From: Tolypothrix brevis GSE-NOS-MK-07-07A
GTDB lineage: Bacteria; Cyanobacteriota; Cyanobacteriia; Cyanobacteriales; Nostocaceae
Length of the DNA: 64,000 nucleotides
Assembly: GCA_019358985.1 (NCBI GenBank)
Contig: JAHHIJ010000007.1
Location: forward strand, 1 to 64,000
Direction of reading: 5' to 3'
The translations under genes and the position numbers were made by a program. Below, one piece after another: positions 75-55,803 of this stretch. Below the pieces are notes generated by a model. The model was not told the origin of the DNA, made no database searches, and saw only the letters and a list, made by a program, of their open reading frames with translations. How positions within the stretch are numbered: the first letter of the stretch is position 1; the number at the start of each line of letters is the position of its first letter.

Positions 75-1487
75 TTATCGTGGATATACTCGTCCTTTCC
101 AAGCACCCCCTCGCCCTTGCCAATGACGCAAAGCAGAGTCTAAAGTCATGAAAGTATAGAGAAAAGCGATCGCACTCAAGCAAAATACTAACCACACAGG
201 ACATTTATAAAAGCGGATAGTGGGTAAGTAAGCCAGACTCATCAGCAACCATGTTAACAAACCTATAAATGCGATTCCCCAATGCCCCATCAAGGCACCC
301 AAAATAAGACCCAAAGGTGGAACGATATAAATCAAAGTCATCCCCACCAAAGTTAAAATTAACAGCAATGGCGAATAATTCAATTGCGTATAAGCAGTAC
401 GCGCAACCATATCCCAAATTGTATTTAAAGAAAGATAGGGACGCAAACTACGAGTTAAAGTACTTAATCCCAGCCAAATGCGACCGGTGGATGAGGATGG
501 GGAGATAGGGAGAGGGGGGGATGGGGGGAAAGAATTATTTATCCCCTTTTCCCTAGTCCTTAGTCCTCCAGACTTAATGGCGTTAGCAAGAGCGCAATCA
601 TCAATTAAAGCGTGTCGTACAGCTTTAATTCCACCGATGCGATTTAAGGCTTCTCTACGAATTAGAATACAGCCTCCGGCAGCTGCGGCTGTTGGATTAT
701 TTGGATCGTTAACCCAGCGAAAGGGATAGATTTTTTGGAAGAAAAAAACAAAAGCCGGAATTAAAAGTTGTTCCCAAAGGCTTTTACAGCGAAGTCGCAC
801 CATCACCGAAACCAAATCTAAGTTATCTTTTTCAGCTTTGGCAACAAGTCGGCGAAGATTTGCTATATCATGCTCAATATCTGCATCGGTGAGTAAATAA
901 TAGTCTGGTTTTTCTAGAGACGCGACATCTGGTTTTTTTAAAGACGCGACATCTGGTTTTTGTAGAGACGCGACATCTGGTTTTTGTAGAGACGCGACAT
1001 CTGGTTTTTGTAGAGACGCGACATGTCGCGTCTCTACAGCTTGAATGCCTTGTTCAATTGCCCATAGTTTACCAGTCCAGCCGGGGGGTAGGGCTTGGGC
1101 AGAAACAATTTGTAATTGCTGTGATTTATTTAAAGCGTGTCCCACACCTAAAGCTATATCTGGAGTGCCATCTGTGCTGTGGTCGTCTACTAGAAAGACT
1201 GTGAATGAGCCGTGATAATCTTGACTTAGAAGCGATCGCAAACTAACTGGTAGCAAATCAGCTTCATTACGTGCTGGAATTACCGCACACACCGTCGGTA
1301 ATGATTCTAGCATTGTTTCTCCTACCTCTAGCCGCTGGTCTGTACGCCAAAACTGACCCCGCAAAGTTAATAATCCAATCCAAGTTGCCAAACATAAGAA
1401 CATTATCCCGAATATAATTCCTTCCATAACCTCTTGCCAATTCACTGCCTCTGTGAGCAAAATACTATGTTTGCTGATTGTATGCAA
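75..1487 (-). CDS. hpnB: Hopanoid-associated glycosyltransferase HpnB (family 2), with two in-frame repeat insertions
   Basis: Membrane-linked GT2-type glycosyltransferase of the HpnB family; the family is tied to hopanoid modification by its linkage to squalene-hopene cyclase, which lies divergently 57 bp away. Visible are an N-terminal membrane segment (about 24-43), the nucleotide-sugar signature VDDHSTDG (about 100-107), the TDAD motif (200-203), an IDD acid motif (about 295-297), and several C-terminal membrane segments. Two stretches do not fit the family: residues about 151-195, an eight-residue tandem repeat (VASLQKPD-like, five copies), and about 308-335, a Pro/Ser-rich stretch encoded by a G-rich tract. 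They lengthen the protein to 470 aa, where I expect roughly 380-390. The longest frame starts at TTG; an ATG at 1427 (MEGIIFG) is a plausible true start. Whether the enzyme still works is unknown. Confidence 0.85.
   Translation of the reverse strand: MHTISKHSILLTEAVNWQEVMEGIIFGIMFLCLATWIGLLTLRGQFWRTDQRLEVGETMLESLPTVCAVIPARNEADLLPVSLRSLLSQDYHGSFTVFLVDDHSTDGTPDIALGVGHALNKSQQLQIVSAQALPPGWTGKLWAIEQGIQAVETRHVASLQKPDVASLQKPDVASLQKPDVASLKKPDVASLEKPDYYLLTDADIEHDIANLRRLVAKAEKDNLDLVSVMVRLRCKSLWEQLLIPAFVFFFQKIYPFRWVNDPNNPTAAAAGGCILIRREALNRIGGIKAVRHALIDDCALANAIKSGGLRTREKGINNSFPPSPPLPISPSSSTGRIWLGLSTLTRSLRPYLSLNTIWDMVARTAYTQLNYSPLLLILTLVGMTLIYIVPPLGLILGALMGHWGIAFIGLLTWLLMSLAYLPTIRFYKCPVWLVFCLSAIAFLYTFMTLDSALRHWQGRGGAWKGRVYPR
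904..1038. repeat. Five 24-bp tandem repeats ending in a perfect 30-bp palindrome, inside hpnB
   Basis: Five near-identical 24-bp units (904-1023), each containing TAGAGACGCGACA, followed by the reverse complement of the last 15 bases, so 1009-1038 is a perfect 30-bp palindrome with arm TGTAGAGACGCGACA. The period is a multiple of three and the hpnB frame stays open throughout. It belongs to the GTAGAGACG palindrome family dispersed through the window. Confidence 0.95.
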
Positions 1488-1543
1488 AGAACTTTTTTCT
1501 CTAATGCTGTGTCGGTAATCTTGTTGATATTGAGTAATATTAC

Positions 1544-53557: not shown

Positions 53558-53755
53558 TTATAAGGGAATAAAACAGCAATGCTTGCAGCTTCCTAGTTTT
53601 TCTTTGATTATTAATGCGTCTAATGCCATCCGAAATGGTTTTGCGGGCGCTCCCATCTCTATAGAGAATCCGGAAGAATATTCGTCTTCAAATTCTCCCC
53701 AGGGTATTAAAGATGCCAGAATTACCCAACGATTATATAAGTGATAATTTGTCAC
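53558..53755 (-). pseudogene. N-terminal fragment of an IS1182/IS5-like transposase
   Basis: NRWVILASLIPWGEFEDEY, then GAPAKPFRMALDALIIKEKL matches the N-terminus of IS1182/IS5-type transposases (pattern LIPW.E.E..Y...F...GAPAK.FR.ALGALIIKEKLG). It ends after about 65 residues; the DDE catalytic part is missing. Its start overlaps the ligA stop codon by 4 bp. Confidence 0.75.
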
Positions 53756-55803
53756 TCAACCAACTTCAACAAATCCGCTTCACTTAACTGTGTAATTCCC
53801 AAACTTTGCGCTTTTTCTAATTTAGAACCCGCATCTTCTCCCACAACTAAATAATCAGTTTTCTTACTCACAGATTCGGTAACTTTACCACCATTTTTCT
53901 GAATCAAGGCTTTCGCTTCATCCCGTTTCAAAGTTGGTAGCGTACCCGTAATTACAAAAGTTTTCCCTACGAACTTTTGATTATCGGATGTCAGCGTCAC
54001 TTCCCCAACAAATTGTAACCCCACAGCTTGCAACCGTTCAATTAAAGTTTGATTTGCAGCAATGTGGAACCACTGGTAAACAGATTGAGCAATTTCTGCA
54101 CCGATACCGTAAATTCCTTCGATATCCGATTGCCTTGCTTGTGCTAATTTTTCCACAGAGGGAAACTTCTCAGTTAATAATTGGGCATTGACGCTGCCAA
54201 CATGACGAATGCCTAAACCATATAATACCCGCGACCAAGGTTGATTTTTACTAGATGCGATCGCATTCACCAATTTTTCTGCTGATTTTTTCCCCATCCG
54301 CTCTAATTCACAAAACTTGTCTTCTGTCAAGTCATACAAATCAGCAACCGAATGCACCACACCTTTCTCGACAAGTTGATGCACTAATTTTTCCCCCATA
54401 CCGCGAATATCCAGCGCATCGCGACTTACCCAATGTTCGATCGCACCTTTGAGGATAGCAGCACAAGAAGCATTAACACAACGCGTTACCGCCTCACCCA
54501 TTTCCCTGACCACAGGTTGGTTGCATACTGGACAATGGGTAGGCATCACAAACGGTTTAGTATCGTCGGGACGAAGTTCTTTGAGTACCCTCAGCACTTC
54601 CGGGATAATTTCTCCAGCTTTGCGGACAATGACAGTATCACCGATGCGAATGTCTAATTGGGCAATGCGATCGCTATTATGTAAAGTAGCGCGTGATACA
54701 GTTGTTCCAGCAAGTTGCACTGGTCGCATTTCTGCCAAAGGCGTTAAAGCGCCAGTTCTGCCAACATTCACGGCAATATTTTCGACGCGTGTAGGTGCTT
54801 CTTCGGCTGCGTATTTGAGTGCGATCGCCCAACGAGGAAACTTTTGCGTAAATCCCAAATCTTCTTGCAGCTTAAAAGAATTCAGCTTTACCACCACCCC
54901 ATCAGTCATGTAATCTAAATTCAGCCGTTCTGTATCCCAATGTTGATAATATTCAGCAACTTCGGCATAAGTTGCACACAGACGCTTGTTTGGGTTGACG
55001 CGAAAGCCCATTTTTTGCAATAATTCTAAGGCTTCCCATTGAGTATTCGCAATACTTGCGTCATCCAATCCTGGAATGTGCAGCGTGTAAGCAAAAAAAT
55101 CTAACTGCCGACGAGCGACAATGCGAGAGTCTAATTGCCGCAGTGTACCAGCAGCAGCGTTGCGAGGATTGGCAAATAACTGTTCACCGGATGCAAGCCT
55201 TTGGGAGTTAATTTGCTTAAATACTTCTAGAGGTAAAAACGTCTCACCACGAACTTCTACCCGTTCTGGTAAAGACGTTTCATGAAACGTCTCTACATTC
55301 AAGCGTAACGGAATTGAGCGAATTGTTCGCACATTTTGGGTAATATCTTCACCAGTTACACCATCACCTCTAGTCGTTCCTCTGACTAAAACGCCATTTT
55401 CGTAAGTCAGAGCCAAAGCATTACCATCAATTTTCAGTTCGCAGACATATTCTACCGCATCTATGTTCGGTGCTTGACGTCGCCAACGCCGCTCCCAAGC
55501 TTGCAACTCATCAAGATTAAACGCATTCTCCAAACTGTATAGGGGAATGTTGTGCCGCACCGTAGTAAACTGTGTTGCGGGCTTTTCACCGACACGCTGA
55601 GTGGGACTATCTGACGTGACGATTTCTGGATAGTCAGTTTCCAGTTGTTGCAATTCTCGATAGAGGCGATCGTAAACTGTATCCTCTATTATGGGAGAAT
55701 CGAGGACGTAATAGGCATAGCTAGCTTGTTGTAGTAATTGCCGCAGCTCTTGAACTCGCTGTTTAACCTTCAACGTCAATGATTCCACGGAGTTTGTCTC
55801 CAC
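53752..55803 (-). CDS. ligA: NAD-dependent DNA ligase
   Basis: Replicative ligase, 683 aa. Domain Ia is followed by the adenylation site Lys124 ([10 protein letters not shown]), [17 protein letters not shown], the OB domain, the zinc-finger cysteines (CPVCNQP...CVNASC), helix-hairpin-helix repeats ([20 protein letters not shown]) and a C-terminal BRCT domain ([20 protein letters not shown]). The start is GTG at 55803. Residues about 170-178 (VETFHETSL) come from a palindromic repeat inserted between the normal LRL and PERVEVRGE stretches, in frame and probably in a surface loop. Confidence 0.97.
55269..55296. repeat. 28-bp palindrome inserted in ligA
   Basis: GTAAAGACGTTTCATGAAAC followed by the complementary arm ending CTCTAC. 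Read on the minus strand as GTA GAG ACG..., giving VETFHETSL. Confidence 0.95.

Follow-up and report, generated by a model that had tools for sequence, protein, structure and literature searches.

The window analyzed here is a stretch of 64,000 nucleotides from Tolypothrix brevis GSE-NOS-MK-07-07A (positions 1 to 64,000 of contig JAHHIJ010000007.1, in one genome of 6.52 Mb), and it carries many copies of a short palindrome, some of which lie within protein-coding genes. We firmly assign this palindrome to the GTAG-tagged repetitive extragenic palindromes (REPs), an established superfamily of which filamentous cyanobacteria are among the reported hosts. Its architecture and copy number, its linkage to genes resembling REP-associated tyrosine transposases (RAYTs), its in-frame insertion and frame use in host genes, and the differences between its cores at orthologous sites were all read from sequence, and they make it very probable that the REP has been spread by cognate proteins of the RAYT/TnpA-REP type and is tolerated in protein loops, with turnover of its core. 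Two features go beyond what we found described: a REP in frame inside the linked RAYT-like genes, and changes of core at orthologous protein sites.

Architecture, copy number and distribution of the REP

Exact copies of GTAGAGACG numbered 29 in the window, compared to 0.14 expected from shuffled sequence, and the 11-mer GTAGAGACGTT was present in 385 plus 447 exact copies across the genome, compared to 5 plus 3 for a reversed-pattern control. In the family survey, 95 of 99 genomes contained GTAGAGACGTT, with a range of 0 to 832 copies. The hairpins are mostly 28 to 29 nucleotides long and consist of a GTAG tail, AGACG, a self-complementary core, CGTCT, and then CTAC or a near form of it (TTAC, GTAC); 36 distinct cores were found among 217 strictly defined hairpins. 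The features by which GTAG REPs are recognized were found here: GTAG at one end of a short hairpin, a stem of 5 to 13 bp with a short loop and complementary core variants, a high, dispersed and mainly intergenic copy number, and the linkage of RAYT genes that have this REP on their flanks, the last in the form of RAYT-like genes. The hairpin search demanded one exact GTAG, so that the share of GTAG ends is a biased estimate. The census of hairpins and reading frames covered 2.43 Mb of the genome and yielded 429 hairpins, of which 36 were inside called genes versus approximately 345 expected (genes make up 80% of the DNA), as for elements mostly removed from genes.

RAYT-like genes linked to the REP

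Matches to the RAYT model on contigs 14, 44, and 57 of the T. brevis genome sit among GTAGAGACG elements. The gene on contig 14 (39824-40486) has REPs on both sides, its TAG stop lies within a REP, and its open reading frame (ORF) contains a run of REP arms plus one whole in-frame REP. A relative was found in 59 of the 99 genomes searched, and 30 loci were cut out. In 26 of these 30 loci an arm of the REP was no more than 600 bp away on one side or both, versus none of 20 canonical RAYT loci (Fisher 2e-10), and 18 had such an arm on both sides versus none (Fisher 8e-6). The baseline for genes of the T. brevis genome was 38% for a side and 6% for both sides.

The RAYT-like proteins have the features of a Y1 HUH transposase, namely an HxH motif, a tyrosine and a TnpA fold. 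Residues H92, H94, and Y181 were invariant across seven of these proteins, a tyrosine at this position being a candidate for the catalytic one, and both proteins tested passed the PF01797 cut-off. The predicted fold of one of them (mean pLDDT of 67.9) was matched by Foldseek to IS608 TnpA (2vic, 4e-6) and to a RAYT (4er8, 2e-5). In this model the REP-coded residues are at the margin of a stretch of low confidence (106-131), which has strand 92-99 before it and helix 136-151 after it. The linkage described above suggests that the RAYT-like proteins are likely to move the REP.

Three other candidates for the mobilizer were set aside. The canonical RAYT gene of T. brevis (L062, contig 39, 16925-17374; NF047646, 8.8e-59) has a different GTAG REP upstream, GTAG-GATGCGTTAGCG..CGTAACGCATC, with a degenerate copy downstream, and among 20 canonical RAYTs from other Nostocales (L261-L280), 15 lie beside GTAG-GTTGGGTT..AACCCAAC REPs, some of them present in many copies. 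Other RAYT-like groups lie beside TTCCCAG or TGAGCGCT hairpins, and a GTAGAGACG arm occurred in only one of the eight of these loci that were cut out (L282). Some IS200/IS605 copies of the T. brevis genome are near REPs, which is uninformative because 38% of its genes have a REP within 600 bp on a side. As a separate observation, the loci beside TTCCCAG and TGAGCGCT hairpins represent two further groups of Y1 transposases with hairpins of their own, TGAGCGCT..AGCGCTCA with a CTAC tail (L281, L284) and TTCCCAG..CTGGGAA without GTAG (L282, L283, L285-L287).

A REP inside the RAYT-like reading frame

We examined 32 loci, the 30 cut out and the T. brevis loci on contigs 44 and 57, and 30 of them had a readable ORF. 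A REP arm was located inside the ORF, after the PNHxH motif, in 25 of the 30 readable loci, the other five having no arm by pattern, and a whole in-ORF hairpin was found in 20; L301 has one arm by pattern, and L305 has one arm within an interrupted frame. The subgroups of RAYT-like genes differ both in the core and in the frame in which it is read: DAMNRVST with core CGATGAATCG, VETFHRNVST with TTCC..GGAA, VETLHCNVST with TTGC..GCAA, VETRNFASL with CGAAATTTCG, and CRDVPWNVST with TTCCATGGAA. In the 19 loci with a hairpin both inside the ORF and on a flank, the in-ORF core mostly resembled the flanking core. The outer three pairs agreed in 18 of 19 loci (permuted mean, 7.8), and agreement with at most two mismatches was found in 17 of 19 (permuted mean, 5.6), neither value being reached in any of 10,000 shuffles. 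The RAYT-like proteins may be specific for the core. One RAYT-like ORF without GTAGAGACG (L325) has at this loop another tandem peptide, GAGHQGVGHQ, which may be a repeat particular to a different family.

Several observations weigh against the RAYT-like proteins as cognate mobilizers. Gene presence and copy number were only weakly linked, with median copy numbers of 43 in genomes with the gene and 17 in those without (P = 0.036). Three of the 15 genomes with more than 150 copies showed no RAYT-like match, and neither did G070, with 121 copies. The two proteins tested scored 55.1 and 60.6 bits on NCBIfam NF047646, below its cut-off of 80. In-ORF and flanking cores differed in L303 and L319, and by two bases in L310 and L316, and the shuffle result for core agreement is not a true probability because related loci are not independent.

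A transposase gene with its own recognition hairpin in frame is unusual. Possible roles are self-recognition and autoregulation, or the arrangement may simply be selfish, keeping a master copy in place. No REP in frame inside a RAYT gene was reported in the titles and abstract openings of the literature searched or in the consulted portions of PMC3733652 and PMC8266576.

Host proteins and use of reading frames

The reading made from the sequence alone had placed the palindrome within the coding sequence of hpnB, ligA, and a CHAT gene and at the end of aroK, all in one frame beginning Val-(Glu/Lys)-Thr (here VET). Translation bore out the coding positions, and in all four genes the G of GTAG is at codon position 1. 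The element at aroK has the core TAGC..GCTA, so that its VET frame is not stop-free and supplies the stop. A paralogue of the CHAT gene on contig 21 has a REP at the identical site. Elsewhere in the genome, in-frame REPs were found in genes identified by family models as MutL, dephospho-CoA kinase (CoaE), magnesium chelatase ChlH, a copper-type P-ATPase, and a dipeptide-type ABC ATPase, and in others named by sequence reading, including a CobN-like chelatase, a hybrid histidine kinase, and an LpxB-like protein. The hosts ligA and mutL are two genes of DNA repair and replication, and REPs in such genes of other bacteria are commented on in the consulted portions of PMC3733652.

Half of the in-gene matches (18 of 36) failed the flank rule of our census because they were short, terminal, or low scoring, as spurious open frames or errors of gene calling would be. 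As an explanation of the in-frame REPs this is extremely unlikely, given that LigA, MutL, CoaE, HpnB, ChlH, and the copper-type P-ATPase have matches among family models or solved relatives and that all of these but the P-ATPase can be aligned with orthologues to either side of the insert. In support of the first interpretation, host sequence continues on both sides of the inserts; the host proteins may have kept their function.

A row entered the frame census if its flanks had a coding score of 0.25 or more and the element had 20 or more codons to either side, with the CHAT paralogue counted once; 18 of the 36 rows passed, and weaker rows (a GT2 gene on contig 42, the RAYT-like gene on contig 14, and short frames) were excluded. 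It gave 12 VET, 2 second-frame, and 3 third-frame cases, with two VET sites within one gene. An alternative element rule adds one second-frame gene (contig 50, 10192) and two VET genes (contig 30, 6191; contig 14, 73479), which are outside the 12:2:3 count. The non-VET frames, all outside the window, are those of MutL and an AAA-WD40 protein and, with the GTAC variant, of ChlH, the LpxB-like protein, and a 604-aa response-regulator-like protein (the AAA-WD40, LpxB-like, and response-regulator-like labels are our own sequence readings). The third frame reads the TAG of GTAG, and all three third-frame cases have the stop-free GTAC instead, an end found in 27 of 384 elements outside called genes. 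Among these 384 elements, the stop-free shares by phase were 0.61, 0.95, and 0.10, from which expected shares of 0.37, 0.57, and 0.06 follow for the three frames. VET was over-used relative to its expected share of 0.37 (12 of 17, P = 0.005; 9 of 14 with the window genes removed, P = 0.034) and relative to the second frame at even odds (12 to 2, P = 0.013; 9 to 2 after the same removal, P = 0.065). The idea of an exclusive VET frame, which holds for codon position in the window, is therefore wrong for the genome, where all three frames are used; a bias toward VET is likely, resting on few genes and a simple gene caller. A second frame census in the ligA flanks of relatives was set aside; it gave 16 elements in 600 kb from 30 loci, of which the four coding ones were all in LigA.

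The sequence-only reading had likened the element to the Rickettsia palindromic elements, and a cyanobacterial counterpart of these, inserted in a single reading frame, would account for in-frame insertion into unrelated proteins and for the excess of VET. We regard this as very unlikely, because the rule of an exclusive frame is already refuted by MutL, ChlH, and others, the tag is GTAG rather than CGTC, and RAYT-like genes are linked to the REP, whereas the CGTC repeats are apparently without a dedicated transposase according to the consulted portions of PMC3733652.

Core differences at orthologous protein sites

In LigA, the element has core TTTCATGAAA in the window and in Plectonema, TTACATGTAA in Fischerella, Pelatocladus, and Westiellopsis, TTGCATGCAA in G048, and TTAAATTTAA in G071 and G032. 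Pair 12 varies among alleles (T-A, A-T, G-C) with the helix kept. The loops of Hassallia, Spirirestis, Nostoc, and others are element-free, and the insert is scattered on the LigA tree; among named contigs, the best LigA identities were with Plectonema radiosum NIES-515 (94%), Hassallia byssoidea (92%), and Spirirestis rafaelensis (90%). Decayed forms are found in Scytonemataceae. The sequence-only reading had named the same residues without palindromic DNA in distant genera as evidence against it, and this was found in part, as LETLRENSL in LigA of Scytonemataceae, with 14 to 18 of 28 positions self-complementary; we read it as a decayed former element. A proline shared after the LigA insert was dropped as proof of common descent because E. 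coli LigA also has it.

In HpnB, the core is CGACATGTCG in the window genome and G096, TTGCATGCAA in G021, which is of the same genus as the window, and TTGTATGCAA in G038. Between the window and G021, three adjacent pairs change together, with amino-acid changes. The ChlH linker, compared in 20 genomes besides that of T. brevis, contains CGATTAATCG, CGCCATGGCG, TTGTATACAA, CGATGACTCG, or, in one case, an element with altered arms; the remaining genomes have remnants, heptamer-like repeats, or no recognized repeat. Up to six core pairs change together in ChlH, again with amino-acid changes, and in G057 and G122, which belong to one genus, the inner six bases differ within near-identical flanks. 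The elements of MutL and CoaE also vary between species, and at each of these sites two sister genomes are without the element; together with the element-free LigA alleles, these orthologues support the first interpretation. In CoaE, the REP replaces native residues and the length is unchanged. As a side observation, the in-frame heptamer-like repeats in the ChlH linker of other species (L329-L348) are GGGAACA and GGGGAAT.

Covariation was scored in rows picked for intact arms: 5 of 15 distinct 28-mers of the 13-residue LigA loop (L213 apart, longer loops out), 6 of 10 ChlH alleles with a REP or remnant (that of T. brevis, L334, L343, and L344 out), 5 of 6 in HpnB (L258 out), 3 of 4 in MutL (L243 out for its length), and 2 of 2 in CoaE. 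The G021 MutL element, the most divergent, has another length and was not among these rows. The observed score was reached by 0 of 500 shuffles for ChlH, 1 of 500 for HpnB, and 4 of 500 for LigA. Double-sided changes that keep a standard pair numbered 6 of 14 in ChlH, 3 in HpnB, and 2 in LigA. The percentage of paired positions is inflated by the choice of rows with intact arms, and the double changes are less affected. The number of changed pairs was not in excess for HpnB (203 of 500 shuffles as high) and was hardly above the shuffles for LigA (33 of 500), and pair types in HpnB also showed no excess (447 of 500).

On the evidence of the sequences compared, the position of the element stays the same at the orthologous LigA, HpnB, and ChlH sites while its palindromic core changes on both arms together. 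Such change at orthologous protein sites is not described in the consulted portions of PMC3733652. Compensatory point mutations, with selection maintaining a hairpin in situ, would fit LigA pair 12, and G070 HpnB, whose core TTACATGCAA has one unpaired pair and is midway between TTACATGTAA and TTGCATGCAA, is as stepwise point mutation would give. This explanation is unlikely, since three adjacent pairs in HpnB and up to six in ChlH change together and the LigA copies of Scytonemataceae have merely decayed. It is possible, though somewhat doubtful as a full account, that different REPs were inserted separately into the same permissive loops, with no exchange in place: the ChlH linker also accepts heptamer-like repeats of an unrelated kind and further inserts, alleles free of the element exist in sister genomes, and the LigA insert is scattered on its tree, whereas base position and frame are identical in LigA of several genera and the ChlH elements of G057 and G122 differ at the inner six bases within flanks that are nearly the same. 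Shared flank bases weigh little here because a T before GTAG is common anyway (60% of elements).

We lean toward core turnover in place over repeated insertion because site and frame are kept and because of the G057 and G122 ChlH pair. In addition to the G070 HpnB core, two results count against turnover. No double-sided Watson-Crick change was found among the MutL and CoaE rows compared, and the G123 LigA element is displaced by three codons, so that repeated insertion into the same linker may partly explain the sharing of sites. Repeated insertion does also happen, as this shift and the variety of sequences in the ChlH linker show.

Other features of the window

The elements and host genes of the window are listed in Table 1. 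A 53-bp tandem array is also present at 35481-35654. In-frame tandem expansions of half an element were seen in LigA (L037, L185) and in HpnB of the window at 904-1037 (VETLHVETLHVTSL; HVTSL three times; runs of VASLQKPD), a pattern that hairpin-induced slippage would give.

Table 1. REP elements and their host genes in the 64,000-nucleotide window
Feature	Positions	Strand	Remarks
hpnB host gene	75..1487	-	TIGR03469, 557.9 bits
REP in hpnB	904..1037	-	full palindrome 1010-1037 plus 24-bp tandem of its 3' arm (VETRHVASLQKPDVASLQKPD...) from 904; encodes VETRHVASL from residue 151
Two intergenic REPs	3514..3631	.	3514-3542 and 3603-3631
Two intergenic REPs	13112..13176	.	cores TTCCGGCGGAA
REP at aroK 3' end	14975..15003	-	provides last codons VET and TAG stop
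aroK host gene	14992..15546	-	name from the sequence-only reading
Intergenic REP array	15590..15751	.	41-bp period
Intergenic REP	27462..27490	.	
Intergenic REP	28863..28891	.	
106-bp tandem array	30817..31330	.	4.8 copies, each unit with one REP
TPR-CHAT host gene	44043..47225	-	name from the sequence-only reading
REP in CHAT gene	44905..44933	-	encodes VKTFHRNVST, residues 765-774
Intergenic REP	49623..49651	.	core TAGCATTGCTA
ligA host gene	53752..55803	-	insert at alignment gap versus E. coli LigA (2owo)
REP in ligA	55269..55296	-	core TTTCATGAAA; encodes VETFHETSL, residues 170-178

Proposed mechanism and comparison with known systems

We propose that a hairpin of 28 to 29 bp, with a GTAG tail, an AGACG stem, and a variable self-complementary core, would be dispersed by single-strand transposase-like proteins. 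Copies landing in genes would persist only if they leave the frame open and place their peptide in a loop or linker that tolerates it, a surviving copy adding about 10 residues (VETF..,.RDA..,.YRR..). The cognate RAYT-like genes hold an in-frame copy themselves, between the HUH strand and the helix preceding the tyrosine region. The core could later be exchanged for another self-complementary core with site and frame kept, most likely through REP-templated conversion or RAYT-mediated replacement. It is conceivable, and we suggest it tentatively, that each such REP-RAYT lineage of the Nostocales marks its own transposase gene and that the REPs in host genes are exchangeable cassettes whose cores are swapped in place. 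About ten residues of enzymes such as LigA, HpnB, and ChlH would then be rewritten time and again by a mobile hairpin. The system combines a family of REPs for which a cognate transposase-like gene can be identified with numerous natural insertions in proteins and with matching alleles, free of the element, in sister genomes, and it makes testable both the movement and recognition of REPs by RAYTs and the gain of peptide segments by proteins from mobile DNA.

The original observation of this palindrome is partly confirmed, and its first interpretation is partly supported. In a literature text search GTAGAGACG occurred in 143 papers, none of which also contained 'cyanobacteri'. Small dispersed repeats of cyanobacteria, Nostocales among them, were reportedly the subject of work by Elhai and colleagues in 2008. 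The supposition that the family was undescribed in cyanobacteria did not hold, as GTAG-12, -15, and -16 REP families of Anabaena and Nostoc are given in the consulted portions of Di Nocera et al. 2013 (PMC3733652). The GTAG-tagged REPs in these portions resemble the present family in their GTAG tail, short stem and loop, high copy number, mostly intergenic location, alternative complementary stem residues, some intragenic copies, and TAG-supplied stops; the window family is set beside GTAG-12, -15, and -16 by description. Intragenic REPs of other bacteria are also noted there, among them one in the DNA ligase of O. terrae. The Rickettsia palindromic elements, as presented in the same portions, share in-frame insertion into unrelated proteins and differ in being CGTC tagged with no dedicated transposase known, whereas here GTAG is accompanied by RAYT-like genes. 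The closeness of an HUH Y1 transposase to its REPs is shared with the REPtrons (RAYT/TnpA-REP), for which the consulted portions of PMC8266576 describe group 3 enzymes accompanying short, generally perfect GTAG palindromes. From these REPtrons the present system differs in that both proteins tested score under the cut-off of the NCBIfam RAYT model and that the transposase-like ORF contains an in-frame REP.

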